From: Vicinamibacteria bacterium
Lineage (GTDB): Bacteria > Acidobacteriota > Vicinamibacteria > Vicinamibacterales > UBA8438
Length of the DNA: 64,000 nucleotides
Assembly (NCBI GenBank): GCA_022820825.1
Contig: JAJEEU010000062.1
Span: 1 to 64,000, forward strand
Direction of reading: 5' to 3'
Shown here: positions 23,501 to 40,337 of the stretch, in pieces
Layout: every line of letters starts with the position of its first letter
Numbering within the stretch: the stretch's first letter is position 1
Program-made: the position numbers and the translations under genes
Notes under the pieces: model-generated
The model's database searches: none
Told to the model about the DNA's origin: nothing
Seen by the model: only the letters and a program-made list of their open reading frames with translations

Positions 23501-23835
23501 GCCAGCAGTTCCAGCGCGTCGGCGGCGTCCTGATCGGCTGGCGCCAGCGGCGCCTCCGCCAGATACTGCTCGACTTGCTCGCGTAGCTCCGTGCCGCGCT
23601 CGATGGCCGCAATCTCGGCCGGTGGCAGCGTGCACCCGACGACCAGCCGCATGCGGCCGCCGTTGCGCACCAGCCCCTCGATGCCACGCGCCGCCAGGAC
23701 CAGCGCTCCGGCGTTGAAGTAGCCCGTCAACCGGTCGTAGCGCTCCGCGTCTTCGAGGGCCGGAACGTAAAACAGGCGCACGAGGTCGCCGTCGTCCGGC
23801 GTGTACTTCCGCTTCCAGGTGCGCGTGGCGAGCAT
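20599..23835 (-). CDS. PLD-like/SNF2-type helicase of a phage-defence locus
   Basis: A 1078-residue protein. Residues about 1-230 form a phospholipase D-like domain with IFHEKAGIVTDRAGDTLAWN and GSLNET; the HxK-type pair is reduced to HEK, and the second HKD copy is not obvious. Then comes a superfamily 2 helicase: Walker A ADEVGLGKTIQ near 313, DEAH box VVLDEAHHARR near 427, LLTATPMQV, and the C-terminal motor with CTDAAAEGLNFQ and EQRIGRIDRLGQ near 865. Families of this architecture occur with DUF1156 methylases and DUF499 ATPases in loci linked to phage defence. It starts three bases after the end of the methylase frame, so the two are coupled. Confidence 0.88.
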   Translation of the reverse strand: MLATRTWKRKYTPDDGDLVRLFYVPALEDAERYDRLTGYFNAGALVLAARGIEGLVRNGGRMRLVVGCTLPPAEIAAIERGTELREQVEQYLAEAPLAPADQDAADALELLAWMVARGHLDVKVAVPCDTARRPIPEDGIFHEKAGIVTDRAGDTLAWNGSLNETAAGWRRNWESINVYTSWGPEPERVKDEDANFARIWADRAQRVVVLDAPEAARRDLLRFMPASDRPARLREAAPDPATPPPVPPDETPAGEIEEPAVDLRRRVWAFIDRAPALPAAGARVGEATAAVVPWPHQVRAFERLYAHWPPRLLIADEVGLGKTIQAGLLLRQAWLAGRARRILILAPKAVLRQWQIELREKFNLNWPIYDGRQLVWYSSPALRGRERRAVEPDAWHAEPVVIASSHLMRRRDRAKVLLEEAAPWDLVVLDEAHHARRRAAGSAQEGGPNALLRLMQGLKERAAGMLLLTATPMQVHPVEVWDLLNLLGLPPDWTDAAFLQFFEDLGQPSPSNEAVERMARLFQAAERQYGAVTVPAARRITSLSPLRANRVLRALRDSASIPRRQLETPERRAALALMRSQTPVRHLVSRHTRELLRRYHKAGLLKTPIAERKVEDRFVEMTAGERALYDAVEDYITTTYNQAAADERTAVGFVMTIYRRRLASSFQALRTTLQRHLDAVARAGDRPAGADADHPPPSLLAGLDEDVSDDETSDEAREADEVASFEQRALAFEEATDIQALLEDIGRLPPDSKVQELKGVVRELRQAGFTQAMVFTQYTDTMDFLREELRQWEGELRLMCFSGRGGEVLSAGGEWTTIGRDEVKRRFRNGEADLLLCTDAAAEGLNFQFCGALVNYDMPWNPMRVEQRIGRIDRLGQSHAAIQIVNLHYAGTVETDVYRALRTRINLFETVIGSLQPILARLPQTITGAVLTGRGRRTGETPGAEAPAEQGSVADAIERQVRDAAAGFDIDAAVDTDVAMPPRASSPVAMEDLDRVIASPDLMPPGAHIQPLGRREYGLLAPGMTDRLRVTTDPAYYEEHSDSLELWSPGNPLFTPPEFVAPEEEFPSDTTLKKLLDG

Positions 23836-23838
23836 CGG

Positions 23839-26465
23839 TCAGCTCTCCTCGCGCCAGAAACGCAACTGATCAGGCTCGTCGATGCGGTCATCGTAGGCGA
23901 AGCGGTAGAGGTTGTAGAGCGCCTCGAAATCGCTGCTCGACGCTTCGACCGCGCCTTCGAGCGCGACGCCGGTGAACGTCCGCGAAGGCGGCAGGGTCTC
24001 CAGGACAGCTTCGAGCGCCGCGAAGAAACGCGGCTCGCGGCGTCGAGCGCGTCTTCGGGCGTCACGGCATACGGGTCCCAGGGCTCCTCGAACAGCACCC
24101 GCTGGCGCCGGCGGCGGCGCTCCGCGGGCTGCGGGCGCGGCGTGCCGCGCCGCAACGGCCAGCGCCGCGAGAACTCCTCCAGCGCCGGCCCGAAAGACGC
24201 CAGGTACAGATCGACGCCTGTGATGCCCGCCTCCTGGAACTCCTCGACCCGGGCCCGGACGGCGCGCGCGACCACCGGCTCCACGTCTTCCCAGTACACC
24301 GTATCGCTCTCGTCCCCGTAGGCCGGGCGAGCTTCGCGCACGGTAGACGCTCCGCCCGCCGCAGCCGGGCGGCCGGTGTCGCGCGGACGGCACACGAGGA
24401 AGATGGTGCTGTTGGCCGCCGCCTTGTCCTTGATGTGCAGGCTGCCCTCAGCCTCGGTGTTCACCGGCCACGACGCGGTGATGGCGAAGCCGGCCTCGAT
24501 CAGTCCCGTCGTGAGCGCGTCCCAGGCGCCGGTCGCCTTGTGCGTGAACATCAGCGTCATGATGCCGTCCGCCCTGAGGACGCGCCGGCACTCAGCGAAG
24601 ATGGCCGCCATGCGCTGCTGGTAGTCGCGCCCTGCCAGCTCCCTGGCACCCGGCTGCCCCGCGAAGCGCGCCGGATTGGCCACCGCCTCGTTCTCTTTGT
24701 CGGTCAGCTTCCGCCGGAAGAGCTCCGGGAAGACGTGGCCGGCCGTGCGCTTGAGCCAGACGTAGAAGAAGTCCGACAGCTCCGCGTACATCACGTTGTC
24801 GTAGTAGGGCGGGTCCATGACGACGACGTCGACCGACCCGTCGTCGATGTGGTCGAGGTTGTCGCCCGGCTTGCAGGTGATCGTGACAGCGGGCGGATCG
24901 GGATGGGCGCCGGTTTCTTCGTCAGCCGCGTCGAAAAGACCGCCCGCCCCGGCGGCGGTCTCGGGCCGCACCAGCGCCACGAGCTCCCGAATGCACTTGG
25001 CGGTCTGCTCGATGACCCAGTCGTAGCCGAGCCCCACGATCAGGGGAGCCATTTCCGCGTAGGACCACTTGAACGCGAAGTCGTGCCGGTCGAAGGTGCC
25101 AGCAACGACCTCGCGACCGGCGTGCCAGCGCGTCATTCGGGAGTTGTAGTCGCGGAGCTTGTCCAGCGACAGCGCCAGATACGCGTAGGCCGCCTTGCGA
25201 ACGTCATCGAGCCTCCCGGCCGCGTGATCAGCGTCGAGCATCTCGCGGAAGACCTCGACGCTGACGCCGTGGCAGAGAAGCTGGCGCGGCGAGAACAGAT
25301 CCTGCCAGTGCTTCATGCCATAGCGGTGCGGCTCCGTTGTCTTGTTGCCGTCCGGAATCGTCTCACTCGGCACGAAATCGAACGCCTCCCACTCCGGCAG
25401 CTTGTCGGCGAGCTTCTTCTGAATCTCGGAGGTGTTGTCGTCTTCCGGTCGGGGAGCGCGGTAACCGCGGACCCACTTCTCGCGTATCCTGCCGGCCTTC
25501 GTCTTGGTCCGTACCCTCCGCTTGTAGACCACCGCGTAGAGCTGATCGCCCATCCGTCCGGCCTGCGCCTGCCGCTTGATCTCATCCCCGTCGAACACGC
25601 GGCCGCAATCCGTGTAGGGGCAAATCCCGTTGCCGCGCGCCACGGTGCCCGCCGATTGCTCCGCAGTGGAAGTCACGATCTCGAACGAGCAGACCCGCCG
25701 GTCCGAACCGGGACCGTTTTCGAGACGAGGTGCCAGGCGGATGCCGGTGCCGTCCGGGGCGACACGCCAGTTGGGTGACAGAGGTACGAGTCCATCGCAG
25801 TACGGACAGGTGACGGTGCGCGCCCAGAGGTAGCCTTCGATGCGAACGCCTTCGGGTTCCAACGGAAAGATGTGGTCGTACTTCCGCTCGGCTCGGCGCA
25901 TGAACTCCCGCGTCACGTCGTCGAACTGCGTGTGCAGCGCCGTCCCGTGCACCCGTGGCCACTCGACCGTCGCCTTCAAGAGCAGGGACGCAACCGGGTT
26001 CACGTCGTTGGCGAGCACCGGATAACCCAACCGGTGGATCTCGATTGGGATGCTGCCTCCGCCAGCGGTGGGATCCAGAATCGTCCGCGCCAGTGAACTA
26101 CTCTCCACAGCACCTTCGACCCAATGCCGGTCATCCGCTGACGGCGTGTACGAGAACGCGCGTTTGTAGCCATAGGGGTTGGGACCGAGGTTTTCCTTGC
26201 TGCGCTTGGCCGCATCGAGCCTGCGCCGCGTCGCCACCGGATCCCCGTGAATCCCGATCACGTGCAGGAACTTGTTCCGGTCCGCATCAGCCGGCAGCAG
26301 CGACGCCAGCACCGCCGCCCGCGACGCGACCAGCGGACGCCGCGCCCACCAGACGTGGAGCCTGTTCGGCGCCGGGAACGGCGTCATGGGCGTCCGCTCA
26401 CGCGTGCTCTCGATACCGAGCGCCGAGATCGGCAGCCAGCGCTCGATCAGGCGGGTGTCAGGCAT
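23839..26465 (-). pseudogene. DUF1156 DNA methylase with a one-base frameshift near its 3' end
   Basis: Adenine-type DNA methyltransferase, about 875 residues if the frame is restored. DUF1156 begins at residue 1 (ALGIESTRER, RLHVWWARRPLVASRAA). The SAM-site motif ILDPTAGGGSIPIE is at 129-142, zinc-ribbon pairs VTCPYCDG and ICPYTDCG follow, and the catalytic motif VVVMDPPYYDN is near 550. Near 24036 one base seems missing: frame 1 reads VTPEDALDAA and then low-complexity Arg/Ser nonsense, while the next frame continues EPRFFAALEAVLETLPPS to a proper end (QLRFWREES, stop 23839). As printed, the frame runs on into the helicase gene and stops at 23727. A lost G in GCGGAG explains it. Confidence 0.85.
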
Positions 26466-26504
26466 GGCTCGGCATGAGTGTTGGAGTTGCTACCAGCCAG
26501 GTCG

Positions 26505-27356
26505 TCACACCTGAGGTCTTCCGCGTACACAGACCAGCCTCTGTATTGTGGTCTCGTCGCTGCCTGCAATTAAGTCAGACGCATCGCTAATGCTTCTGTT
26601 TACATCCACCGCAAACCTTTTGGACATCTCGTCGCACCATACGAACTCGCCTTCCCTCCGCCGGCCGTTGAAAGCCCAACCGAGCATATGATGCGTGTCT
26701 ACAGGTATGCCTATTTGGACAGGTTTCTTCCTCAGTCGCGTCTCAATCCGAAGCAACGCCGGCCGATTCCCCATGATCAACGGAATCGGCGAGCGCAATA
26801 GAAACATTCGCGTGGCGTCCAGATCACGCACGGTGAAACCGCCGTTCGCGCTCTCATCGGGCATCTCCAGTGCCAATTTCGTTATCAGGGCCTTGAACTG
26901 CGGGTAGTCATCCACCAGGTTGTGGTACTCTTTCTCATACAAATAATCAAACTTGTTAGGCTCCCGGTACCACATGGACAAAAACATGTGCTGAAGGATG
27001 TATCGCGTTGTATGTTCGCGGTTTGGTTGCGGAACGGATACCCGCAGCGCCTCCGCTCCTTGAGCTGCGACATTCACAACGCTTCTTACTGCTCTGGCCG
27101 ATATATCGTCCAAAAAACTGTACGCATCTTCGCCGTACGCCACCAATTTTTCGCCTCGAAACGCGGCGTACCCGTTGGCTTTTGAGAACAACTTGTCCGG
27201 TTTCTTTCGGTATATCCTGCCCGTCCTCCTGTCGCCTGTGTACAATTCGTCTTCACCTTCCGGCAGGAATCGCTTGATCAACCAGCGCGGCACATAGTGA
27301 TGGTTCTTTGCCCTATTTTGCCGGTCGAGATCAGGCGCATTGAAAACAAGTTGCAT
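26505..27356 (-). CDS. DUF4238 family protein
   Basis: A 283-residue protein of unknown function. The N-terminal motif NHHYVPRWLIKRF (residues about 18-30) fits the H-x-Y-V-P-x-x-L-x-x-F hallmark of DUF4238, and the middle has ILQHMFLSMWYREP. DUF4238 genes are often found among accessory and defence genes. The stretch is clearly less GC-rich than the surroundings, which points to recent acquisition. GGAG precedes the ATG at a normal distance. It lies 39 bases before the methylase gene on the same strand and could be transcribed with it. Confidence 0.75.
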   Translation of the reverse strand: MQLVFNAPDLDRQNRAKNHHYVPRWLIKRFLPEGEDELYTGDRRTGRIYRKKPDKLFSKANGYAAFRGEKLVAYGEDAYSFLDDISARAVRSVVNVAAQGAEALRVSVPQPNREHTTRYILQHMFLSMWYREPNKFDYLYEKEYHNLVDDYPQFKALITKLALEMPDESANGGFTVRDLDATRMFLLRSPIPLIMGNRPALLRIETRLRKKPVQIGIPVDTHHMLGWAFNGRRREGEFVWCDEMSKRFAVDVNRSISDASDLIAGSDETTIQRLVCVRGRPQV

Positions 27357-27488
27357 GTCTTCTCCAATCCACTAAAATCCCCGACTGCTTGATCGTCACG
27401 AGCGGCTCCAACGATCGTTACCGCTCATGTTATCACCGCTACCGACGTTGCCGCGCACCACTCGTTCCAGCATCGACTCACCGTTCCC

Positions 27489-27514
27489 CGTCAGGGGCGG
27501 CGCCGCGCCTGACG
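27489..27514. terminator. Strong imperfect palindrome after the HTH gene
   Basis: CGTCAGG (27489-27495), one mismatch, GCGGC/GCCGC back to back, one mismatch, then CCTGACG (27508-27514): a 26-base near-perfect palindrome about 12 bases beyond the stop of the large HTH gene. No run of T follows on either strand, so it is not a classical intrinsic terminator. It could limit readthrough or bind protein. Confidence 0.45.
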
Positions 27515-27525
27515 AACATGTGCGG

Positions 27526-30500
27526 TCAGTGCTCAAGCCGCTTCATTACCCGCACCTGGGAGTCCTCACGTTCAGCGTACCGGTCATAGTGCTTGGCGAT
27601 GCTTTCGAGGATATTCGCAACGTAGGGGTAGTCGAACTCCAGCCGTTGCGACCACGTTCGATATTTCTTCGACAACTCGCGTTCCTGTTTGCCGCCCTCG
27701 TCCAGGCCGCGCGAAACCACGCCGCGCCCGTTGTACACGCCGATTTCGAACCCGCTGGCTATGTCCTCGCTTGCAATGGACTCCAGCACCTCGCACACCG
27801 GGCGACAAGGCCAGCCGCCATCTTCTTCGGACGGCGATCTCGACAGCAACTGGCCGATTTTCTCATCACCTATTTCAGCACGGCCATGTTCCCGGCACAA
27901 TCGGCGCGCCTCCCTAACCCACAGACTCAGCGCGCGTGGGTCCACCCTGCCATCGTCATCGGCGCCCGGCATGCGTTTGATTTCGTCGAGCAGTCGATAG
28001 ACAGCATGCCCCAGGGCGGTACGCCGGTCTGGATCATTGACGCGCCACTCGGGTGGATCCTGACCGTTGTCGCTGCGCTTGTAGAGAAGAGCGAGAGCCT
28101 GTGCGAAGAGACTTGGCGACTCGGTGATCTTCCGCTCGATATTGGGAATGCCGTGTTCGTTATGGACAAGCGCGTCGATGAACGCAAACTCCAGTTGCGC
28201 CATCTCGTCCGTCGTGACGCCAAGCCGCTTGTCGAGTGAATCCAGCGCCTCCGAAAGGCTCCAGGACTCGATCTCGTACTTCGCGGCGGCGGGCTCGGTG
28301 TTGACGTGGATGAGGGCTGCCAGGAGGCTCTTGAGCCGTGCGGTTTCGACCTGGTCCAAATTGAATTGCACCGCCGCGAAGGCTGCCCGAGGGCGCTCGG
28401 CTTTCAACAGGCGATCGATAATCTCGTTCGTCTCGGACTCGGTAGGTCCCACCACCAGGGGAAAGACGGTGCACCAGTATTGGTCCCGTACAGTTCCATC
28501 CTGCCGGTCGAGCAGGTTCCAAGTCGCATTGCGGAACGGAGCACATCTGAAAAGGCGAACTATCTGATCGACGCCGCCGGTTTCCGCTAACGTCGAAAGG
28601 ACCGTGGACGTTACGCCTTCATCAAAACGCCAGAGAAATCCCCGCATGAATTCATCGAGCTTCTCTTCAGGTTCGGTGCCGGTAGACAGACATGTCCGCA
28701 GCGCTTCGGCCGCCGCGTGCGGATCGGCTGCGCAGCGGGCGGCGTACTCGCCGACGGTCCGGGCATCGCAGTCCGCCAAGAGCGCGAGAGCACCGTCAAG
28801 GCCCCGCGCTGACCAGATCTCCGCCATCGCCTCCATACGAAGTTCGTGGACCTGCTCTTCTCGCTTCTTCCAATCCGGACGCTCCTCGTCGAGTTCGTCA
28901 ACCGACACCTCCCACATTGCACCGGGCACGAAAAGCCATGCATGGCGCTGGACCTGATCGCTCGGAGCGAGCGTGTCACAGATTTGGCGCGCCCGGTCGT
29001 GCTGATCGGCGTCCAGACCACTGAGACGTCCGGGCCGTCCGAGTACCGTCCGACGGAGCCGTGTGCGCAATGCCGTTTTGGCTTTTTCATCGGACTCCCG
29101 CCGTGACCAAGCGTCGATAATGTCCCATACTCGGGATTGAACCTCACCCTCCATATTGCCGATGCGCTCGACCAGATCGCCCAGTGTCTCCACGTCATGC
29201 CTATGCACCGGCCAAGACAGCGCGAGATCGAGTGCCTTGCGGAAGAACTCGTACCGTTCCCGGCCGCTAACTCCGCGCCCTGCTCCCGCAGCGTCGTTCC
29301 GCCAACGTGGTCGGTCGCTGAAGTGGCCGAGCTGCTGACGACCTTCAAACTGCTGGACGCAAATTGGCCAGCCGATGTCGGGAAAGTGATCACACAGGGA
29401 CTCGAGTGCCTTGATTCGAGCGTCCAGCGGTGCGGCCGTTTGTGGCAGCCAGAATCGGAATATGGCGGAAAGACTATTGATGGGTTTGTTGACCCAGTTG
29501 TCGTCGATCTTCGTTTGGGATAGCCTCGCGAGAATGTTCACCACGCGCATCAGGTTCCGCGGATTCCAAGCCAAGCGTTCCAGTGCCCACAGGATCCCGG
29601 TGCGCCAGGGACGTTCGGATACGCCGGCGCCTACCGGCTTCAGCAGCGCCAGCAGGGCCGGTTTGGGCTGCCTTAGATCCTCTTTGAGCAACCTCAGGAA
29701 CTCGTCGGGTGCAGCCTCGGCGTAAGCCGGCAGGTCACGGTCGTGGGATCGCAGCGTCTCGCTCGTGAAGGGCTCGAGGAGGCCCTTGATGAGCTCCGCG
29801 ACGCGCGACGCGACGTCGATGCCAAGTCGGTTTCCGAACAGGGCGTTCCCGTGAACCGACAGCATGACCAGGGTTTCGCAGACGCCTGTCCGCAATACGT
29901 TGGAATGCTCCCGGACCTTGCCGTAGAAACCCGCTGCCCATTGTTGATCCTCCGGGAGTTCCAGCGCCGGATCGGACTCGGACAGAACGCACTTGGCAAC
30001 GTGCAGGAAATGGGAAATGTCTTTTGCCGTCATCCACCGGCGGATGGCAAACAGAGCATCGATCTTGGAAACGACCCCGCGGTATTCGTCCACACACCAG
30101 AGCGGGCAGTCTTCGCACTGAAGCAGGCCGGCGATGCTCTCCTCGACCTCGTCGTATTCGCACCTCGCGAGCGTCGCGAGAACCTCCCGATCCACCTTCG
30201 ATCCGCTGCGCCACGCGCCGACCAGAGCCATCGGTATCAGGCATCGCGCAACTGCCTCGTCCTCGGCCCAGGACGGCTTTCTGATCGCGTCGATCTCCGA
30301 CAACCGCCGTCGCAGAACGGTCGGTGACCGGCCCGATTCGCTTGCCAGTCGATCGAACCGGTCCTGTTCGATGCCCATGTCAGCGAGCGCCTGCTCGAAT
30401 GCCGCGTGTGCCATGAGCTCGACGGCAATGTCCGGTTCGCGATCGACCGCATTGCGGGGCCGCACGACGATGCAGTGACGTTGCCGGTACAGGGAAGCGA

Positions 30501-31617
30501 CCTCGCGCTCGACCTCTTCGCTATACACGATCGGAATGAACGGAGACGAGGACTCCGCCAGGGTTCTCAGCGTGCTTGCCGACTCGAAGACGACGGCTTG
30601 GTCGTAAGTACCAGCAGGCAGGTCTTCGTGCCGTAGCAGGCACGCGAGAAACGCGACAGCCTCATCCCTGGAATCGGCGGCGACGGTGCGGGGCCGGTCG
30701 CCGGGCTTTTTCTCCAGCCATTTCCTGAGGTCTTTCAGGTGGGCGGCGATGGATGGTGCGAAGATCGCGGCAGTCAGCGGCGGGTCACTGGCCGCTGCCC
30801 ATCGACTCCAGAAGTCGTCAAGTGTCTTGAAGCCCTCCGTGGGAATGCCGAGTTCCCTCGCGAGCCAGATCCGCGGTGCTATGGTGGTCTCCAGCCACTG
30901 CTCCAGATCGCTTGCGTCCAGCGCCTTCACCGCCTTCCAGTCGCCGGCCGCCTCCTTGGCGCGGACCCACCGGACCTTGCCCGGCCAGTTGCGCGGTGTG
31001 ACGAACACGAACGTGCACTCGGCCCGTTCTTTCGGGTCAACCGTCTTCAGACGCGCTTGGTAGTCTTGTTCTGCCTTACGGCCGGGATCCTGTTCGACGC
31101 CGAACTCCCATACCGACTTCCCTTCAGGCACCCACGGCGTCGCCGCATCCGCTTCGACCCGGCCGTCGCAGCCGTGACGCTGCGCGTTGTCGTAGCCGGG
31201 GAAGTCCACATGGCGCAGCTCGCGCCCGGCCGAGTGGACAAGCCGGCGCAGGAGGACGGGCAGAAGTTCGCGGGCGCGGAGATTCCCCGCCGCCCATTCC
31301 TCGATCTGCCGAGCCTTGATAGTGAGAAAATCCGGAACGTAGGCACCGACAGCGACGGCGCGGTCTTCGTCGCGCCGCCGGTCCCGATCGGCCGCCGCCT
31401 GGAGTGCAAGCAGCTTCGTCCGGTCCGCGCCGAACGTCGCCTCCAGCCGCAGAGCCATGTTCTGCGACAGCGCCGCCCGGCCGTTCAGGAGGTTCGACAG
31501 CGCCGGCCTGCCGACGCCCAGCTTCTTGGCAGCTTCCGTCACCGTCATCCCGGCCGGGATGACGTGCTGCCGGATGAAGGTGCCGACTTTCGAGGAGTTG
31601 GACGCTGAGCGCGGCAT
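27526..31617 (-). CDS. Giant HigA-type HTH protein with a possible restriction-endonuclease-like domain
   Basis: A 1363-residue protein I cannot assign to a described system. Residues about 10-65 are a HigA/XRE helix-turn-helix (VTEAAKKLGVGRPALSNLLN). Residues about 135-250 carry RHGCDGRVEADAATPWVPEG, SVWEFGVEQDPGRKAEQDY and CTFVFVTPRNWPG. The order Asp151 ... Glu171 ... Lys181 inside predicted strands is reminiscent of PD-(D/E)xK nucleases. Around 300 there is a degenerate P-loop-like segment (TVAADSRDEAVAFLACLL). The remaining thousand residues look alpha-helical, possibly HEAT-like, with no known motif. A promoter/operator lies directly upstream. GC is lower than in core genes. The nuclease and P-loop readings are inference. 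Confidence 0.7.
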   Translation of the reverse strand: MPRSASNSSKVGTFIRQHVIPAGMTVTEAAKKLGVGRPALSNLLNGRAALSQNMALRLEATFGADRTKLLALQAAADRDRRRDEDRAVAVGAYVPDFLTIKARQIEEWAAGNLRARELLPVLLRRLVHSAGRELRHVDFPGYDNAQRHGCDGRVEADAATPWVPEGKSVWEFGVEQDPGRKAEQDYQARLKTVDPKERAECTFVFVTPRNWPGKVRWVRAKEAAGDWKAVKALDASDLEQWLETTIAPRIWLARELGIPTEGFKTLDDFWSRWAAASDPPLTAAIFAPSIAAHLKDLRKWLEKKPGDRPRTVAADSRDEAVAFLACLLRHEDLPAGTYDQAVVFESASTLRTLAESSSPFIPIVYSEEVEREVASLYRQRHCIVVRPRNAVDREPDIAVELMAHAAFEQALADMGIEQDRFDRLASESGRSPTVLRRRLSEIDAIRKPSWAEDEAVARCLIPMALVGAWRSGSKVDREVLATLARCEYDEVEESIAGLLQCEDCPLWCVDEYRGVVSKIDALFAIRRWMTAKDISHFLHVAKCVLSESDPALELPEDQQWAAGFYGKVREHSNVLRTGVCETLVMLSVHGNALFGNRLGIDVASRVAELIKGLLEPFTSETLRSHDRDLPAYAEAAPDEFLRLLKEDLRQPKPALLALLKPVGAGVSERPWRTGILWALERLAWNPRNLMRVVNILARLSQTKIDDNWVNKPINSLSAIFRFWLPQTAAPLDARIKALESLCDHFPDIGWPICVQQFEGRQQLGHFSDRPRWRNDAAGAGRGVSGRERYEFFRKALDLALSWPVHRHDVETLGDLVERIGNMEGEVQSRVWDIIDAWSRRESDEKAKTALRTRLRRTVLGRPGRLSGLDADQHDRARQICDTLAPSDQVQRHAWLFVPGAMWEVSVDELDEERPDWKKREEQVHELRMEAMAEIWSARGLDGALALLADCDARTVGEYAARCAADPHAAAEALRTCLSTGTEPEEKLDEFMRGFLWRFDEGVTSTVLSTLAETGGVDQIVRLFRCAPFRNATWNLLDRQDGTVRDQYWCTVFPLVVGPTESETNEIIDRLLKAERPRAAFAAVQFNLDQVETARLKSLLAALIHVNTEPAAAKYEIESWSLSEALDSLDKRLGVTTDEMAQLEFAFIDALVHNEHGIPNIERKITESPSLFAQALALLYKRSDNGQDPPEWRVNDPDRRTALGHAVYRLLDEIKRMPGADDDGRVDPRALSLWVREARRLCREHGRAEIGDEKIGQLLSRSPSEEDGGWPCRPVCEVLESIASEDIASGFEIGVYNGRGVVSRGLDEGGKQERELSKKYRTWSQRLEFDYPYVANILESIAKHYDRYAEREDSQVRVMKRLEH

Positions 31618-31621
31618 GAAC

Positions 31622-31652
31622 GACTAGTGTAGCGTGTCGCGCTACACTAGTC
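31622..31652. promoter_or_regulatory. Perfect 13-bp inverted repeat, probable autoregulatory operator
   Basis: GACTAGTGTAGCG at 31622-31634, spacer TGTCG, and the exact complement CGCTACACTAGTC at 31640-31652. It ends five bases before the start codon of the large HTH gene and overlaps its promoter, as expected of an operator for a homodimeric HigA-type repressor. Confidence 0.72.
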
Positions 31653-31654
31653 AA
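31626..31654 (-). promoter_or_regulatory. Sigma-70-like promoter giving a leaderless HTH mRNA
   Basis: On the minus strand TTGACT (31654-31649), a spacer of exactly 17 bases, then TACACT (31631-31626). Only eight bases lie between the -10 hexamer and the ATG at 31617, so transcription would begin at or within a base or two of the start codon. No ribosome-binding site is present, consistent with a leaderless message. Confidence 0.65.
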
Positions 31655-31843
31655 CGACACCGTAACTCACGTTGCATGCACCGCACGCTCAAGCGCCGCT
31701 CTCGACAACCGGCATCCGCTCGGACCGAAGTTGGACCTCCTTCAGCGTGCCCCTCCGGCGCGGGCAGCGGCGCAGCTCTGGCCACGGAACGGGAAGTTGA
31801 CACAATTCCGGGATGCGCCACGGGAAACGCGATCGCTCATCAC

Positions 31844-34800
31844 TTATGCTCCACGGCGATCCAAGTCTCCCCAATGGACGTTCGAAAGTGCCGATTCAAT
31901 AGAGTTCTCCGGGTTACCAGTAGCCGTGGCGCCATCGTCTGCCTCGGCGTGGACGTGATAGCGCAGATTCGCCGGTGAGTTGATGCCGGCATCGAGAATC
32001 GTTACCGTCACGTTCTGCATAGATCCGTCCTTGCGCGTCCGGCAGCACGAAAAATCAGTTTTCTGATATACCTCCGGGCGTCCAGGCACGACCTCACGCA
32101 ACTTCGTTATGGCTTCTTGCACGTCATATTTGTCCAAATTCTCCTCCTGTCCTTCTGTTCGGGGCCGCCGGGCGCGGCGCTTCGCCAGATCCTGCCTGAT
32201 GTCCTCCGCGACCTCCTCGACCTCGCGCGCCACGCGGGGCTCAAAACCGAGTTCCCGTTCCAACGCCGTCGTCAACGGCAGCAGGAGAGTTGCCGACGGA
32301 GATACCTTGATGAGTTCAAGCATACGCGCCGGCCCGAGCACATCGCTGAACATGGCAAGGGCGTCGAGGTGTTCCCTCCGGAGAGCGCCCAGCTCCGGGA
32401 GGATCGCGAGTATCGCCTCGATGTCCTGCTCGGTCTCCTGCATATCGCCCTTTGCGAAGTATGCCTTCGCACGGATCAGGTGACACAACCATCGGTTTTC
32501 GGCAGAGCCTGCGCCGAACTGATCGAACGCCTGATCAACTGCGTTGACCGTTGCATCGTATTGCTGGCGACCCAGCTCGACCTCCGCCCTCGTGAGAAGT
32601 GCGCGCGCTTTTAGCACCCGCAGTTCCGGGGATTCCTTCCCATCGCAACGACGCACCACCTCCTCACAGACGGCCAGCGCTTCCTCCGGCCGATTCAACG
32701 CGCCAAGTGCGACACCCTTGTTGGTGAGAGCCCTCGCGACCGACTCGGCCAGAACTGGCGATTCACTTTCTCCAAAGCGATGCACCACCTCGTCATTGAC
32801 GGCCAGTGCCTCTTCCAGCCTGTTCAATCTACCAAGTGCAACGCCTTTGCCTACGAGAGCCTTCGCGACGCGCTCACGCAAAATCGGCATCTCGCTCGCC
32901 TCGAAGCGCTGCACAACTTCTTCACATGCGGCCAGTGCGTTCTCGAGACGTTCCAGCTTACCTAGCGCGACCGCCTTGTTGACGAGGGCATCTGCAACCA
33001 GAATGCGGAGAACGTCCGGCTCGCTCTCCCCAAAGCGACGCACCACTTCGTCCCACGCGGCCACCGCCTCTTCCAGCCGATTCAACTTCGCGAGCGTAGT
33101 CCCTCTGTAGACGAGGATGTGCGCAACTAGCGCCAGACCTGCTAGCGTTTCGGTCATCCCGAAACGTCGCCACGCCTCGTCGTAGACGGCCAGTGCCTCC
33201 TCCGGCCGATCCAGCTCATCAAGCGCGACGCCCTTGTTGATGAGCGCTTTCGCGACCGATTCCCGCAGGTCCGGTGCGTCGCTCCCCCCGAAGCGACGCA
33301 CCACCTCATCGCAAACGGCCAGCGCGTCTTTCGGCCGACCGAGATTGCCGAGCGCACTCGTTTTGTAGACGAGGGCCTTCGCCACGGGCTCAAGAACGAC
33401 CGGCGATTGGCTAAACCCAAAGCGGCGGACTACCTCGTCATATGCGTCCAGCGCCGCCTCAATTTCATTCGCTTCACGAAGCAGGACGCCCTTGTTGACG
33501 AGAGCCTTCGCGACCCATTCCTGCACGGCGGGGTCTTCACTAGTGCCAAAACGACGCACCACCTCGCCGCAGGCCACCAAGGTATCGTCGGTCCCGCGGG
33601 ACATGCGCAGCGTAGCGGTCGTCTCGAAGAGCTCTCTCGCCGCCTGTTCTGGCGATATGTCTGTCCTCCCATAGGACTGCTCATCCCGATGACTATCCGG
33701 CCGGTCGGGATTTTCCGCCACCGCCGGCAACTCCATCAACTGCGTGAACGCAGCCTGGTACAACAACTGCGCCTCTGCGTCCAGACCATCCATTTCCTGG
33801 ACCATGCGGGCGCCTATCTCCCTCAACTCGGACGGCGAGTAGTACGACTCCATGAAACGAATAAGGGCTGCGACCAGATGGTCCGGGCGGCGGCGGCGCA
33901 GCAGGTAGTAGATGTTGTAAAGGCGCGCGGTCAAGTAGTACTGCTTGCGTCGGGCACTACCACCCGCCACCTGGACCGCCCCGCGCTCTCCGAGGCGCGC
34001 GAGTTGCGCGCTGCACGTGCTGGTGTCCAGCCGGGCCTGCTCGGCTGTCTCCCGCGTGGTCGCCGGCTTCCACAGCGTAGCGAGCGCAAGGTAGACGCGC
34101 CGCTCCTGCGCCGGCAGCGATTCGATGTGGCTCTTGAAGTCCCCCGTGTGATCATCGACCAGATCGAGGAGATCCGCCATGAGCTCGCGGAACGACAGCC
34201 CTGCGCCGAAGCGGGCAACGATCGAGATCAACCGCGAATTCCCGCCGGTGAGGATCTCCAGCGAACGAACCGTGCCGGGCGCAGGAGAACGGCCGACTAC
34301 CGATTCCCAGAGAACGGCGCATTGACTTGTGTCGAGCGGGCGCAACGTGTGGACACCGAATAAGTCGTACAGGGCGTGGTCCGGGTGATCGATCTCGTCG
34401 AACCGGCTGGTCGCGCTTGCGAACATGATGACCCGCGGCTCGGTCTGGAGGACTTTCCGCAACCGCCAACCCGCGTCCGGATCGGTCATGTCCCGGAACA
34501 ACGCGTTCAGGTTCTCGACCACCAACAGCAGCCGCTTGTCGCGCCGGTCGGCAAAATCCAGCACCGCGGCAAGGCAACGGTCGGCCAACGTTTGATCGTC
34601 ACGAATGGCGCGCAATTCGGTGACAGTGCGGTTCAAGTCGGGGTCGTCCTCGGGGCACGACGCCTGCGCCGTCAGGTGCGTCAGACATTCGAGCCAGAAC
34701 TCTCCCGCCGTGGCGACCTCGTAGCTCTCCTCGGCGAAGATGACCGGGAAGCAGCGCGCCGCCAGCGCAGCGTCCCGGCGCACCTCGGCCGCGACGCGCA

Positions 34801-34987
34801 GCAGCAGGCTGGTCTTACCGCTGCCCTGCGGGCCGATCACGATCTGGTGCGGGTTTGAGGATCCGGTGCATGTGCGCAGGATCTCGACGAGCAGATCGAA
34901 CTCCGCCCGTCGGACGCAGAAGGACGCGACCAGCTCGTCGTCCGTGAGGAAACCGGGGTTGTACTTGCGGGCGCTCACCGCCATCAC
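31844..34987 (-). CDS. P-loop ATPase with winged helix and TPR-like repeat array
   Basis: A 1047-residue STAND-like protein. Walker A is IGPQGSGKTSLLLR (residues about 51-64) and Walker B is RLLLVVENLNALF (152-164). A winged-helix-like segment follows (LARLGERGAVQVAGG), then eight tandem 43-residue helical repeats at about 465-800 of the type AVCDEVVRRFGGSDAP plus VAKALINKGVALDELDRPEEAL, and a C-terminal region with CCRTRKDGSMQNVTVTIL. Repeat arrays behind a P-loop switch are typical of proteins that sense a ligand and trigger immunity or regulation, but no effector domain is recognisable. The start is GTG 34987 or ATG 34984; it overlaps the stop of the small frame upstream. No experimental role is implied. 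Confidence 0.75.
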   Translation of the reverse strand: MMAVSARKYNPGFLTDDELVASFCVRRAEFDLLVEILRTCTGSSNPHQIVIGPQGSGKTSLLLRVAAEVRRDAALAARCFPVIFAEESYEVATAGEFWLECLTHLTAQASCPEDDPDLNRTVTELRAIRDDQTLADRCLAAVLDFADRRDKRLLLVVENLNALFRDMTDPDAGWRLRKVLQTEPRVIMFASATSRFDEIDHPDHALYDLFGVHTLRPLDTSQCAVLWESVVGRSPAPGTVRSLEILTGGNSRLISIVARFGAGLSFRELMADLLDLVDDHTGDFKSHIESLPAQERRVYLALATLWKPATTRETAEQARLDTSTCSAQLARLGERGAVQVAGGSARRKQYYLTARLYNIYYLLRRRRPDHLVAALIRFMESYYSPSELREIGARMVQEMDGLDAEAQLLYQAAFTQLMELPAVAENPDRPDSHRDEQSYGRTDISPEQAARELFETTATLRMSRGTDDTLVACGEVVRRFGTSEDPAVQEWVAKALVNKGVLLREANEIEAALDAYDEVVRRFGFSQSPVVLEPVAKALVYKTSALGNLGRPKDALAVCDEVVRRFGGSDAPDLRESVAKALINKGVALDELDRPEEALAVYDEAWRRFGMTETLAGLALVAHILVYRGTTLAKLNRLEEAVAAWDEVVRRFGESEPDVLRILVADALVNKAVALGKLERLENALAACEEVVQRFEASEMPILRERVAKALVGKGVALGRLNRLEEALAVNDEVVHRFGESESPVLAESVARALTNKGVALGALNRPEEALAVCEEVVRRCDGKESPELRVLKARALLTRAEVELGRQQYDATVNAVDQAFDQFGAGSAENRWLCHLIRAKAYFAKGDMQETEQDIEAILAILPELGALRREHLDALAMFSDVLGPARMLELIKVSPSATLLLPLTTALERELGFEPRVAREVEEVAEDIRQDLAKRRARRPRTEGQEENLDKYDVQEAITKLREVVPGRPEVYQKTDFSCCRTRKDGSMQNVTVTILDAGINSPANLRYHVHAEADDGATATGNPENSIESALSNVHWGDLDRRGA
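32607..33588 (-). repeat. Eight 129-bp tandem repeats inside the TPR ATPase gene
   Basis: Eight in-frame units of 129 bases, each coding 43 residues with the pattern DEVVRRFG.SE.P.L, VAKAL.NKGVAL and L.R.EEAL. Units are diverged but keep the same length, so the array grew by duplication and may still change copy number. Confidence 0.8.
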
Positions 34988-35130
34988 TCGGTGCGGGACT
35001 CGGTGCTTTCGGGCTGTTGAACGGTTCCAGGCAGAACGACCTTGACATCGTTGTTGTCGCCTGACACGTTGATCTGAACGCCGGATAACGGTGCACGCCC
35101 TTGGGGACGCAGCTTACGCAGCAGCGCCAT
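34984..35130 (-). CDS. Short hypothetical frame (48 aa) before the TPR ATPase
   Basis: ATG 35130 to TGA 34984, overlapping the start of the TPR ATPase gene (TGATG). It encodes a basic N-terminus (MALLRKLRPQGRAPL) followed by GVQINVSGDNNDVKVVLPG. The motif of alternating Gly, Asn, Asp and Val is of the kind found at the ends of NTPase-associated proteins. It may be a real small partner or the remnant of a longer gene. I assign no function. Confidence 0.4.
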   Translation of the reverse strand: MALLRKLRPQGRAPLSGVQINVSGDNNDVKVVLPGTVQQPESTESRTE

Positions 35131-35166
35131 GAACCCTTGTCCCCAGCCTTCCAGCACTATCCTTCG

Positions 35167-35213
35167 TCCTTTCCCAACAGATTTACTGCCAGCAACATTG
35201 CCGGCTATGCCCG
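35167..35213. repeat. Imperfect direct repeat, copy B
   Basis: The plus strand TTTCCCAACAGATTTACTGC and following bases through CCCGCTG align with 35631-35680 at roughly three identities in four, with two small gaps. It lies just past the point where ATPase homology stops, suggesting that the repeat pair took part in the rearrangement. Confidence 0.5.
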
Positions 35214-35653
35214 CTGAGCTGCCGCCAGTTTCCGGCGTCGATTCCGGCCCGCAGCTTGACGCGCACCTCGCCGACGGCCAGCGTCTCGACCCGATCGCCG
35301 GCGTCGCGCAGGACGTTGGCGAATCCCGACTTGATCCGGCGCCACACACCTTCGACGCGCTGCGACTGAACGCCGATCTCCACAACGGCATCCGCCGCGC
35401 TGCCGGCAGCTTCCAGGTCGACGAAGACCGTCTCGAAGCGCTCCTCGTCCGCCAAGCGGCGCAGCAGCTCCCGCACTAGGCGGGTCTTGCCGATCCGCCG
35501 CTGCGCCTTCAGCAACGTGTGGGTTCCGTTCCCTGTTCGCTCGGCGAGCAGACCGAGCTCGGTCTCCCGGTCGAAGAAGCGATCCCCATTCACCCAGTTC
35601 GATCCCGCCTTCGTCAATCCCGCCACACATTTTCCCAACGATTTCGTTGCCAA
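35183..35653 (-). pseudogene. Truncated COG1672-type ATPase
   Basis: The frame encodes NGDRFFDRETELGLLAERTG, then LLKAQRRIGKTRLVRELLRR (Walker A-like RRIGKT), [18 protein letters not shown] and VKLRAGIDAGNWRQ. This is the N-terminal third of the archaeal-type ATPase family, whose members are usually near 480 residues. After NWRQ homology ends and the frame closes eleven residues later, before Walker B. The start may be TTG 35653 or GTG 35593. The fragment is bracketed by imperfect direct repeats (35167-35213 and 35631-35680). It is probably non-functional. Confidence 0.65.
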
Positions 35654-35680
35654 CTATATTGCTGGTAAACATTCTCGCTG
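35631..35680. repeat. Imperfect direct repeat, copy A
   Basis: The plus strand TTTCCCAACGATTTCGTTGC and following bases through TCTCGCTG. It lies just upstream of the truncated ATPase frame. On the minus strand one frame reads MFTSNIVGNEIVGKM, similar in pattern to NVAGSKSVGKG encoded by copy B. Confidence 0.5.
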
Positions 35681-35785
35681 TCAAGGGCAGAATCGCACCC
35701 GTCGATTGCATCATTTTGAGTCGCTGCAGACATCAATAGGATGCTATGCTGACGTGGCTGAGGTGATGGTCAGGGGAGAACACTG

Positions 35786-36238
35786 GTGACGCAAGAAACC
35801 GTCGCGCGTGAAGCTACCGGGCAACCCGCGGGAGGCCTGCGGGGCATCGACGTGCCGCCCGCCGCCTTGGCCGATCGTTCCGCCTTTGTCGAAGCGGTCC
35901 GAGCCGGGTTACCCGGTGAGGTCGTGAAGCAGACCGTCGATGTCGTCGGCTATCGGGACCTCGTCGTACGGCTGGTCGGCACGACATCCGCCAACCTGCA
36001 CCGGGTCTATCGCCGCAAGGCGCTCGCCCAGGCGCAGTCGGAGGCACTTCTCGATACGCTGCGGGTCTTCAGCCGCGCCGAGCAGGCGTTCGCGGGTCTA
36101 GTTAGGGCGCACGAGTGGCTGGGAACTGCGCTTCCCGCGCTGGGGGGAGAACGGCCGATAGACCTCTGCGATACGTTTGAAGGGCGGCGCCAGGTACGAG
36201 ACACCCTCCGCCGGATTGAACACGGCGAGTTTCCCTGA
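35786..36238 (+). CDS. MbcA/ParS/Xre-type antitoxin
   Basis: A 150-residue antitoxin. An N-terminal HTH-like region (GYRDLVVRLVGTTSANLHRV) is followed by the DUF2384 toxin-binding domain: SEALLDTLRVFSRAEQAF, AHEWLGTALPALGGERPIDL and CDTFEGRRQVRDTLRRIEHG. This is the partner of RES-domain toxins, encoded immediately downstream with a TGATG overlap. Such antitoxins usually repress their own promoter. The start is GTG at 35786. It is on the plus strand, opposite to the surrounding island genes. Confidence 0.92.
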   Translation: MTQETVAREATGQPAGGLRGIDVPPAALADRSAFVEAVRAGLPGEVVKQTVDVVGYRDLVVRLVGTTSANLHRVYRRKALAQAQSEALLDTLRVFSRAEQAFAGLVRAHEWLGTALPALGGERPIDLCDTFEGRRQVRDTLRRIEHGEFP

Positions 36239-36723
36239 TGCGGCTGTATCGAATCTGCCATGTCGACCATCTTGAGAACTACCAGGGGCTCGGGGCGAGC
36301 TACCAGGACGGCGGACGTTGGAACGAGCAAGGCATCCCGGCACTCTACTTCGCCGTGACGGCCAGCGTCGCGATGCTGGAGATGGCAAACTACCTGCCGT
36401 CGCCCCGCCTGGTGCCTCCCACCTATCGCCTGGGCGTCTACGACGCCGCCGGGAACCTGACAACGGAACGCTGGATGGCAGCTGAGCTGCCGTCCGGCTG
36501 GGACCGGTTTCCCTGGCCGCCGTCCACGCAGCGGATGGGATCGGACTGGCTACGGCAAGGGAGGGCGTCCCTGCTCGTGGTTCCGAGCGCCGCCGTGCCC
36601 GGCGGGCTCGAAAACATCGTGCTCGCCAACCCCGCCCGTCTCGACACGGAGTCGATTCGCCTGAGCGCCGTGCACGAACGGCTCTACAGCCCGCGGGCGT
36701 TCACGGATACGCACAAAGCGTAG
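36238..36723 (+). CDS. RES-domain toxin (MbcT/ParT family)
   Basis: A 161-residue RES toxin. Family members attack NAD+ (phosphorolysis) or ADP-ribosylate targets. The sequence shows GGRWNEQGIPALYFAVTASV with the conserved Arg and Tyr, then AMLEMANYL with the conserved Glu, and the terminal ESIRLSAVHERLYSPRAF. The length is normal, so it should be active. The stop lies at the junction with a truncated ATPase gene on the other strand, which suggests that this pair replaced part of that gene. Confidence 0.92.
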   Translation: MRLYRICHVDHLENYQGLGASYQDGGRWNEQGIPALYFAVTASVAMLEMANYLPSPRLVPPTYRLGVYDAAGNLTTERWMAAELPSGWDRFPWPPSTQRMGSDWLRQGRASLLVVPSAAVPGGLENIVLANPARLDTESIRLSAVHERLYSPRAFTDTHKA

Positions 36724-36838
36724 TACGGTCGACAGGTTCCGCCGGATTGGCGAATCGGCGCACGCCCATCAACCGACGGCCGACGGCTCGGCCAAACGGA
36801 GCGCGGTAGTTCTCGATCTCCACCGTCTTGAGCTTCAT
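36701..36838 (-). pseudogene. 5' remnant of a RecF/AAA15-like ATPase gene
   Basis: The frame begins MKLKTVEIENYR, the characteristic first strand of RecF, SMC-like and OLD/AAA15 ATPases, then loses all similarity and ends after 45 codons. Its ATG overlaps the stop of the 166-aa gene upstream (ATGA), as a genuine operon member would. The loss of homology falls next to the stop of the inserted RES toxin gene. The rest of the ATPase has therefore probably been deleted. Confidence 0.5.
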
Positions 36839-37335
36839 GTTCCCGGCTTCCTGGTGCGCGGCCGCGGCTCGGTCAAAAGCACGCGCAGGGCCGTGAGCAC
36901 GCGGCGCGGGCACGGGCGGTGCATTGCCATGCCGAGCCAGTAGGCCGCTTCCTCGCGGCCCATCGCCTCTATGCCGTCGGCCACGGCGCGCATGTTGTCG
37001 CGGCTGCGCATGGGGGCGAGCGTGCGGAACAGCAGCCCCAGCCCCAGCGCCAGGTCTTCCGTGAGCGCATAGCCGCGTTTCCTTGCCGCCGCGCGCGGTC
37101 CGAGCATGACGCCCGCCTGCGCGAGCCGCTTCAATACGCGGTGCTCCACGAGCTGCAGGTTGCGGTGGCGGAGGCCGGCGACGCGGACGGGCGCGGTCAC
37201 GTGGGGCGTGGCGGAGGCCGGCATCTGCCAGATCTCGTACTCCGCATCGACCGGTCCGTACCGCCGCACCCGCAGCTCGTAGCGCGGTGCGGAGGCCGGC
37301 GTCTCGACCGATGCCACCCGCTCCAGTTGCGCCAT
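36835..37335 (-). CDS. Uncharacterised 166-aa protein coupled to the DUF499 ATPase
   Basis: No family recognised with certainty. The N-terminal half is beta-rich and compact (RYELRVRRYGPVDAEYEIWQ, VRVAGLRHRNLQLVEHRVLK). The C-terminal half is alpha-helical and basic (LALGLGLLFRTLAPMRSRDN, then EAMGREEAAYWLGMAMHRP). The start overlaps the DUF499 stop by one base and its stop overlaps the ATPase remnant, so it is the second gene of the right-hand defence operon. It may bridge the DUF499 ATPase to other subunits; that is inference. Confidence 0.7.
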   Translation of the reverse strand: MAQLERVASVETPASAPRYELRVRRYGPVDAEYEIWQMPASATPHVTAPVRVAGLRHRNLQLVEHRVLKRLAQAGVMLGPRAAARKRGYALTEDLALGLGLLFRTLAPMRSRDNMRAVADGIEAMGREEAAYWLGMAMHRPCPRRVLTALRVLLTEPRPRTRKPGT

Positions 37336-40300
37336 CAGGATGCAGCCTCCTGTGCGGTCGCCGAGACGTACGCCGCCCCGCCCGCGAAGCGGGTCAGCCT
37401 TTCGGTCAATGCTTCGGCGGCATCGCCGGTCATCGACAGCCCTTCGGTGAAGGTCAGTTCGAAACCCGCCTCCAGGTTTCTTTCCCGCGCGTCCCGCAAC
37501 TGCGGCTCGAGGAACTCGCGCAGCGGTTGCGCGTCCGTTACCGGCCCTCGAAACTCGATTTGGAACGAGCCGCCGTCGCGGGTCTCGTAGCCGCCGACGA
37601 AGGACACGACCTTTTCGGCGCCCCGCACAGAGCCGACGCTGCTCAGCAGGCGAAAGGCGTCGCCCGCCTCGAACATGCGGACCGTCAACCGGCCGATACG
37701 TTCGATGTTCCGGCCGCGCGCCTGCTCCCAGAGCTGCGTCAGCGCGTCGCGGAGCACCCCTTCGGCGGACAATTCGGGTCGTTCCCTCACCTTGCCGGGC
37801 GGCTGGGGCGGAGGGAACGGTGGTTCCGGCTCTGGCGGCACGGGCGGTTCCGGCTCCGGGGGACCCGGCGCCGGCCGCGGCCAGATGCCGCGGTTCCTGG
37901 CGAACGCCATCGTCAGGATCACAGACTGCTCGTCGATCACTATCTCCGCCGACGGGTCCCCCGGACCGAACAGCAGATCGCCGCGGCGATAGACGTACTC
38001 GCTCTGCTCGACACCCAGCCGCACGCCGCGGATGAAAACGTCGTCACCGATCAGCATCGGCAGGCCCGGATCACGCCGGAACTCGTTGCGCAGCGCCAGG
38101 GTTGTGATTTCCCCCTTCCGGAGCGGCGTGCGGTCGCGCACGTACGCCGGCGAATCGGGCTCGTCCTCGGCGCGCCGCAACTTGTTGAGGTCGGCGAGAA
38201 CCCGCGCGATGTGTTGCTGGCCAGCGCCCGGCTGATCCGACGTCGAGTGGACGTCGATAGCGGAATGCGCCAGGTCGACGTCGGCGCCATCCATGCGGTG
38301 GCGCGACGGATAGAAGACGTGGCGGTAGCACTGCTGCACGGCGATGGCCAGTTCCTGCTCGGAGCGTGCTTCCAGCTCGCGGACCTTCTCCCGCTGATGT
38401 TCGGCCAGGTCGGCGAGGCGCTCCGGTCGCTTCAGCTCCCGCAGGGCCAGCCGCCGCGACGCGTGGCGGCGCATCTCGTTCCGGCGCTTGTCGTCCGCGA
38501 CGACGAACACGACGTTGTTGCGCAGCACCCGCAGTGCCGACCCGTCGGAACCCTTGCGCAGGTGGATCCGCCGCACGAGATCCGGCAGGTTTTCCGACTC
38601 CCCGACGGTCACCGCGTCGTAGGCCACGACCACGAGCCTGGGCCGCCCGTCGCCGACGTCGTCCGCCACGTCGAAGGGGCCGCCGGGAAACGGGAGCGCG
38701 TCGAAGGGGCCGCCACGGAAAATCCGGACGATGAGGTCGTTGAGCTCGGCGCGCGAGTCGCCAGCGTCGACGTGCTGCTCCTCGCGGCGGATGATCTGGG
38801 TCAGGTTGGCTTCCGCCAGGAACCGCATCGGCGCGCCAGGCCGGTCGTCGAGATACGCCGACTCGGACAGGAACCGCTTCCGCGCGTCTTCGATGAAGCT
38901 GATGTCCAACTCCGGACTCAGCATCGAGTAACGCAACTGCTCGGGCGCGACCCCCTTGAGTGGGTCGTTGAACGCCAGGGTGTGCATGAAGATCGTGCGC
39001 GCGACATAGGCGGCGTACGGCGGCAGCCCGCCGTGATGCTGCGCATCGAGGTCCTGCGCCAGCGAACGGTTGCCACCTGTCCCGGCCACGTCGTTGGCAA
39101 TAGCCGGGACGTAGGCGGACTGCTGAAGGCGGGTAACGATTTCCTGGCGAATCGGCTCGTTGCCGGGATCTATGTGGTGCAGGTGAATGGCCGTGGCGTC
39201 AGCCGGGCGCGCCTCCCAGAGATGCGCAATGGTGCGGGCCAGCAGCCGCAGCATGCCGCGCACGCGCTGGAACGTTTCCAGCGTTGCGGTCTTGGACGTC
39301 AGCGTCTGCAGCACCTCGGGGTGCAGCGGATAGCTCGCCCGGAAGCTGTCGGCTGTTTCCGCGCGACCCGCGTCGGCTGAGATGCCGTCACGGCTTGCGG
39401 ACCAGACGGACTGATAGGCTGCGACGACGTCCTGAGCGGCCTTGGAGTCGATTTTCTCGAACAGGCGCCGGCGCAGCACGTGGGCCGTCTCGTCCTCCTC
39501 GGTCGGGTTCAGCAACGTCGCCTTGCGCGCCGAGACGCTTTCTGCCTCCGCCATCCGGTCGGCAATGAACTGGTTCTCGGCCGAATACGCGTCCGAAGCC
39601 CGGCCATCCTTGCCGATCGCCAGCGTATAGACAAGCGCGGCCCGTGGCTCCCCTTCGACGGCCTTGAAGAGCGACGTCAGAAACGCGGTCAACTGGTCGC
39701 GCGCCGCGCCAACCTGCTGTACCTTGCGCAGGTAGACGGAAAGCTCGTCGAGGAGTATCAGTGTCGGCTCGCCGCCGAACAGCTCGCGCAGCGTGTCGGC
39801 GCCGGGAGCGACGCCACGGGTGTCACTCTTCTTGACACGCTCGAAACCTGTCTTCCCCGCGAGCGCGTATGCCAGCTCACCCCACGGCGTATGCGCCCGC
39901 ACACCTTTCCCCATCGTCCGGCCGTTGGCCGGATCGGCGTTCTCTCCGTCGAAGGCGGCCACCCGCACTGGACCGTCTGGTAACCGAGCCGGATCAATGA
40001 ACTCGTCTGCGTCGTCTACGCCAGTCAGACCGCGCGCGGCGTGCGCGAGTGCTATCAAGCCGTGTGTTTTACCGCCGCCGTACGACGTGTCGAGGCGGAA
40101 AATCGCCGCGGCCTCGCCGCCGGCGCCGCTCAGACGCGCGCATACATTCGCCAACAGGTTCTTCAGGCCTCGCGTAGGGTAGGTATTGGCGAAGAATCGA
40201 ACGGGATCGCTGTAATCGCCGCTGCCCTTACCGTCCATCACCTGGGCCAGATCAGCGGCGAAATCTGCTTCCGCAATCGCTCCGCGCAGCACGTCCGGGC

Positions 40301-40337
40301 GAGGGCGGCACGTATCGAATATCGTCGGCGGTGTCAT
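37335..40337 (-). CDS. DUF499 family ATPase of a phage-defence locus
   Basis: A 1000-residue P-loop ATPase. Walker A is DTSYGGGKTHGLIAL (residues about 83-97), Walker B is PTLILLDELSVYL (near 190), and the sensor-like segment AALVYTLAIGKDGRASD follows. Near 830 there is a Pro/Glu linker, then a C-terminal domain with GSVRGAEKVVSFVGGYETRD. DUF499 proteins are found with DUF1156 methylases and PLD helicases in loci linked to phage defence, as BREX-like large ATPases. Here those partners lie 11 kb away, beyond inserted genes. The gene begins 21 bases after pdxJ on the same strand, so it could be driven by the housekeeping operon. Confidence 0.88.
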   Translation of the reverse strand: MTPPTIFDTCRPRPDVLRGAIAEADFAADLAQVMDGKGSGDYSDPVRFFANTYPTRGLKNLLANVCARLSGAGGEAAAIFRLDTSYGGGKTHGLIALAHAARGLTGVDDADEFIDPARLPDGPVRVAAFDGENADPANGRTMGKGVRAHTPWGELAYALAGKTGFERVKKSDTRGVAPGADTLRELFGGEPTLILLDELSVYLRKVQQVGAARDQLTAFLTSLFKAVEGEPRAALVYTLAIGKDGRASDAYSAENQFIADRMAEAESVSARKATLLNPTEEDETAHVLRRRLFEKIDSKAAQDVVAAYQSVWSASRDGISADAGRAETADSFRASYPLHPEVLQTLTSKTATLETFQRVRGMLRLLARTIAHLWEARPADATAIHLHHIDPGNEPIRQEIVTRLQQSAYVPAIANDVAGTGGNRSLAQDLDAQHHGGLPPYAAYVARTIFMHTLAFNDPLKGVAPEQLRYSMLSPELDISFIEDARKRFLSESAYLDDRPGAPMRFLAEANLTQIIRREEQHVDAGDSRAELNDLIVRIFRGGPFDALPFPGGPFDVADDVGDGRPRLVVVAYDAVTVGESENLPDLVRRIHLRKGSDGSALRVLRNNVVFVVADDKRRNEMRRHASRRLALRELKRPERLADLAEHQREKVRELEARSEQELAIAVQQCYRHVFYPSRHRMDGADVDLAHSAIDVHSTSDQPGAGQQHIARVLADLNKLRRAEDEPDSPAYVRDRTPLRKGEITTLALRNEFRRDPGLPMLIGDDVFIRGVRLGVEQSEYVYRRGDLLFGPGDPSAEIVIDEQSVILTMAFARNRGIWPRPAPGPPEPEPPVPPEPEPPFPPPQPPGKVRERPELSAEGVLRDALTQLWEQARGRNIERIGRLTVRMFEAGDAFRLLSSVGSVRGAEKVVSFVGGYETRDGGSFQIEFRGPVTDAQPLREFLEPQLRDARERNLEAGFELTFTEGLSMTGDAAEALTERLTRFAGGAAYVSATAQEAAS

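Follow-up and report, generated by a model that had tools for sequence, protein, structure and literature searches.

A probable HigA/higBA-type operator in the promoter of a gene for a large HigA-domain fusion protein

The fusion gene, its protein and its neighbours

The window, by which is meant the whole 64,000-nucleotide stretch of Vicinamibacteria DNA analysed here, carries on its minus strand a gene (27526–31617) for a protein of 1363 residues, P0001, in which a HigA-type helix-turn-helix (HTH) domain is fused to a large protein. The full-length homologues match it in length, all having about 1350–1370 residues, unlike the small stand-alone HigA proteins (about 100 residues).

The HTH domain covers residues 8–77 (31387–31596, minus strand) and is matched by HTH_3 and by TIGR02607, the HigA antitoxin model (49.7 bits, with a curated cut-off of 47.7). 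A search of the solved structures with the alignment profile finds E. coli HigA, YbaQ, GraA, P. vulgaris HigA and PaHigA for this domain, and no significant structure match elsewhere in the P0001 chain. The core of the HTH (Pro38, Leu40, Ser41, Asn45 and Gly46, in P0001 numbering) is invariant in the 19 aligned members of the family.

The model predicted for residues 1–620 has a pLDDT of 82 and a pTM of 0.72, and it places the HTH first, followed by an α/β order that would suit PD-(D/E)XK and by a further α/β region. Residues 130–255 (30853–31230, minus strand) are tentatively assigned as a PD-(D/E)XK-like region, on the basis of their α/β order and the invariant residues Asp151, Glu171 and Lys181. 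The order of the elements fits this fold, yet the E-x-K spacing is non-canonical, and there is no Pfam nuclease match. Residues 283–450 (30268–30771, minus strand) form a tentative STAND NTPase-like region, for which Foldseek finds Avs3, CED-4, Avs4 and Apaf-1; the 15 family members shown do not have a GxxxxGK[ST] Walker A motif at the aligned position. With the whole 1–620 model the best matches are Avs3, CED-4 and Avs4, at low TM-scores (about 0.2). The remainder of the chain, from about residue 440/450 to residue 1363 (27529–30270, minus strand), is a HEAT/ARM-like helical solenoid in the structure model, and the C-terminal fold search gives generic HEAT solenoids only, again with low TM-scores. 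In addition, PD-Lambda-4_A has a weak match in nine of 19 members (best E value 1e-6). P0001 resembles the Avs and other STAND anti-phage sensors in the Foldseek likeness of its first 620 residues and in its long helical C-terminus. Unlike Avs and PD-Lambda-4, it has no recognisable Walker A motif, and it carries a putative self-repressing HTH at its N-terminus.

The annotated neighbours of P0001 are DUF4238, STAND-TPR, RES/Xre and Hma-like genes, and no higB (RelE-like) toxin gene is recognised among them. A co-directional gene for a 1047-residue AAA/STAND-like TPR protein (31844–34987) is located directly upstream of the fusion gene, the DUF4238 gene (26505–27356) is directly downstream, and a RES-domain toxin with an Xre/MbcA/ParS antitoxin is found at 35786–36723. 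Hma/DISARM-like genes flank the fusion gene over the region 20599–40337: a DrmD-like helicase (20599–23835), a DUF1156 methylase resembling HmaB (23727–26465), DUF7680 (36835–37335) and a DUF499 ATPase resembling HmaC (37335–40337). The fusion gene and others lie mid-way among them, as if inserted. The homologues often adjoin defence genes. Among their neighbours are an MmeI-type enzyme, HipA, a type I specificity subunit and a methylase that is accompanied by a Pycsar-type TIR protein; one homologue (L013), however, adjoins gyrB. A recurrent partner gene was sought in the homologous loci and was not found. A role in defence against phage is likely for the fusion protein, and the product of this 1363-residue gene may be harmful, as supposed in the original prediction.

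The operator-promoter and its conservation

Upstream of the gene is a perfect inverted repeat (31622–31652, minus strand), with half-sites GTAGCG and CGCTAC. Its two 13-bp arms, GACTAGTGTAGCG and CGCTACACTAGTC, are located at 31622–31634 and 31640–31652, are 100% complementary and are separated by five nucleotides, as the original prediction described. The –35 hexamer TTGACT (31654–31649, minus strand) and the –10 hexamer TACACT (31631–31626) are 17 nucleotides apart, and eight bases (31625–31618) separate the –10 hexamer from the ATG at 31617; both distances agree with those given earlier. The repeat had been placed in the interval between the two hexamers. It does fill the spacer, but it also takes in the last four bases of the –35 hexamer and all of the –10 hexamer. 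In the homologues, the –35 hexamer has the same frame, and the –10 hexamer is mostly TACAAT or TACACT. No other promoter-like site is found in the region 31400–31900, and the shuffled sequences give 0.0.

This is the longest perfect repeat with a spacer of at most 10 nucleotides in the window. Repeats as long as this one occur at a mean of 0.15 per shuffled window, and the palindrome by itself is therefore only mildly unusual for 64 kb. Its significance comes from its position in the promoter and from its conservation, not from its bare length. A weight matrix built from the sites of 19 other homologues ranks the operator first in the whole window, with 39.1 bits. The next ranks are taken by this palindrome read in overlapping registers on the opposite strand, and everything else in the window scores below zero. 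The core pattern, with up to three mismatches, has a single copy in the 4.23-Mb assembly.

Homologues that are full-length or nearly so are found in Nitrospira, Binatota, Proteobacteria, Firmicutes, Planctomycetota, Thermoleophilia and Acidobacteria, with pairwise identities of 44–85%. One of them (L004) shares 85% identity with L010 or L017 even though they come from different phyla, which indicates horizontal transfer. A sequence related to TTGa-N5-TGTAGCGcTACACgATACAAT is located before the gene in 20 of the 21 homologues, in the same promoter frame and with the right half-site overlapping the –10 hexamer. With a leave-one-out matrix, each of these sites outscores anything in 300 shuffles of the upstream region that it comes from. 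The expectation that the palindrome would be kept before homologous genes is thus borne out, as is the assignment of an operator to an HTH gene in its own promoter, the HTH being of the HigA antitoxin type. Beyond what was predicted, the operator is of the HigA/higBA type, belongs to a large fusion protein and is conserved across phyla.

The one homologue that lacks the operator (L016, 192–1922) is from an Acidobacteria MAG, whose genome belongs to the same family as that of the window. It has a disrupted open reading frame and may be a decaying copy. Its upstream sequence, with a tRNA-like 3′ end, is also shown by L035. Three relatives have about 40% protein identity, and two of them, on plasmids of Shewanella and Ensifer, still have a recognisable operator. 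The third, from Halioglobus (L089), with about 38% identity, has an HTH of the HigA type, and no operator site was found for it.

The perfect symmetry of the window operator is unusual in the family, and the sites of most homologues are imperfect. This bears on a very different reading of the repeat, in which it ends transcription of the upstream gene, forms an RNA hairpin or arose by chance. The upstream gene is co-directional and ends about 190 nucleotides before the repeat, and the count in the shuffled windows leaves some room for chance. On the other hand, both the sequence and the promoter frame are kept across phyla, and the homologues vary in symmetry while their half-sites stay, as for a protein-binding site rather than a hairpin. 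We consider this reading highly improbable. A terminator can be rejected, as there is no T-run and no terminator is found at the repeat.

Phage records contain no full-length relative. Comparing the promoter region with plasmids at the nucleotide level was uninformative, and so was a scan of viral contigs for the exact palindrome core, whose ten scattered hits were accompanied by neither a HigA nor a shared gene.

The original prediction also held that the mRNA has essentially no leader. This is plausible for the window and its close relatives, where the gap between the –10 hexamer and the start codon is 5–8 nucleotides (the window, L014, L032, L033 and L034; L014 is from Acidobacteria, and the other three are from the order of the window). 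It does not extend to most homologues from other phyla. Apart from the planctomycetal L010, with a gap of seven nucleotides, the remaining homologues have gaps of 20–46 nucleotides, often with a GGAGG-like sequence. In a 310-kb sample of the host genome, TANNNT shows a peak before candidate starts (11 at –12 and five at –13, compared to about two per position elsewhere), accompanied by a Shine-Dalgarno peak. The –10 hexamer of the window starts at –14, slightly off this peak, so that one to three leader bases are possible. In the acidobacterial host, the transcript would begin at the ATG or within about three nucleotides of it. About 13% of the genes in Acidobacteria are reported to be leaderless (PMC3160421). 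The near-leaderless layout is a habit of the acidobacterial lineage and not the core of the regulation.

Relation to HigA and GraA autorepression

HigA proteins repress transcription through palindromes in their own promoters (PMC6987408, PMC6393540). Like the HigA and GraA proteins of higBA and graTA (PaHigA, PMC6987408; GraA, PMC6393540), P0001 has a HigA-type HTH and a palindromic operator inside its own promoter. In comparison with those systems, however, the HTH is confined to the first 80 of 1363 residues, and there is no recognised higB next to the gene. The half-sites differ as well: GTAGCG/GTATCG stands in place of TTAAC(G).

The GraA operator (sequence from PMC6393540) is read as distal and central half-sites. 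By our parsing it is TTAACG-AA-TAACGTTA-AG-CATTCA, and the operator of the L004 homologue, GTATCG-TA-TAGCGCTA-CA-CGATAC, parsed in the same manner, has the same 6-2-8-2-6 spacing. By our parsing, the operator in the window has two possible dimer sites, of which one has been perfected to arms of 13 bp and one is poor.

Related genomes encode stand-alone HigA-like proteins that share up to about 51% identity with the fused domain. Sites recognised by the matrix are located about 340–390 bp upstream of several of these higA genes, and the open reading frame in between is presumably higB, judging from its position and size. One such higBA-type site is TTGACGACTGTAGCCTGTAACGCTACAGT-TATCAT-ATG in L037. 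As the matrix sites are at the presumed starts of higB, the fusion gene appears to use a promoter-operator of the higBA type. Stand-alone HigA genes on plasmids (L091, L092 and L093), with no annotated higB, immediately precede DNA methylase genes and have upstream palindromes such as TGTAAAG-N5-CTTTACA. Their HigA proteins are possibly controllers of restriction-modification genes.

The sites, their promoter frame, the identity of the domain, the conservation and the similar operators on higBA operons are observed, whereas we infer binding, repression, the origin of the domain and operator, and a defence role. The palindrome is very probably the operator of a HigA-type autorepressor, with P0001 repressing its own gene. 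The N-terminal HigA domain would bind GTAGCG-N5-CGCTAC as a dimer, and the bound dimer would shut out RNA polymerase, because the site overlaps the –35 hexamer and covers the –10 hexamer. As a result, the gene would be nearly off until the protein becomes scarce or is engaged elsewhere.

The main ligand of a genuine operator could instead be a separate HigA, from a higBA or restriction-modification locus, with the fused domain being a relic or a decoy. The related genomes do commonly encode stand-alone HigA proteins with similar operators. However, in the assembly of the window, which is 94% complete, nothing else is HigA-like at E ≤ 1e-3 and the site occurs once, which leaves P0001 as the only evident ligand of the operator, and the invariant HTH core argues against a relic or a decoy. 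A separate main ligand is therefore improbable. Under autorepression by P0001, a domain and an operator of the higBA kind would serve other cargo, probably a defence-related protein with PD-(D/E)XK-like, STAND-like and HEAT-repeat regions.

The autorepression of HigA and GraA is an established mechanism, which appears here on an unusual gene; no description of a HigA fusion of this kind was found in the open literature. CdxB of lypABC (PMC13236601) and CapS (PMC13373217) are similar in that an HTH-type repressor holds down the expression of a potentially toxic immune gene. They are separately encoded, whereas the putative repressor domain of P0001 is fused to the protein that it controls. The findings indicate that control parts of toxin-antitoxin systems, the HigA domain and its operator, serve as an integral regulator of a large protein with a probable immune role, a pairing that has survived transfer between phyla. 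They also predict that, within one polypeptide, transcription of the gene is tied to the level of the protein and perhaps to its activation state. At least one such gene (WP_012197948.1, 1370 residues) carries the bare annotation 'HigA family addiction module antitoxin', which conceals the remainder of the protein.

Distant relatives and possible exchange of the HTH

Relatives with about 24–32% identity share the core from about residue 98 onwards. Before this point they have another XRE-type HTH, a MerR-like HTH or no HTH. Four relatives with the other XRE type (L083, L087, L094 and L097), three of which are closely related, have TCATAT-N5-ATATGA at or over the start codon, and two further ones keep one half of it. 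The two relatives without an HTH have no notable palindrome. This pattern in the sequences is suggestive, although not conclusive, of the HTH and its operator being swapped as a unit.

The distant relatives are also relevant to the function of the HTH itself, which could have some other function, or a further one, such as aiming the protein at DNA. The HTH might mainly be an effector or sensing part that binds DNA at targets, with binding to its own promoter being secondary, and an HTH followed by a PD-(D/E)XK-like region is an order that would suit DNA targeting. However, the core is the same in members that have a different type of HTH or lack one, and nearly every homologue has the operator in the promoter of the gene. 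There is little likelihood that this is the main function of the domain, and control of its own gene remains the preferred one.

More tentatively, and with somewhat less than an even chance in our estimate, the proteins may constitute a single-gene defence family that has spread horizontally, with PD-(D/E)XK-like, STAND-like and HEAT-solenoid parts, and that exchanges a self-repressing HTH together with its operator as one cassette. The cassette would be of the HigA type, of another XRE type, MerR-like or absent. Each protein would then be the thermostat of its own expression, and engagement of a phage signal by the solenoid might release it.

Genes like those near the fusion gene in the window are also found beside distant relatives. 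In Thalassospira (L096), a RES/Xre pair adjoins a relative, and in Adhaeribacter (L085, 6882–8123) a DUF4238 gene is located downstream of a relative that has no HTH.
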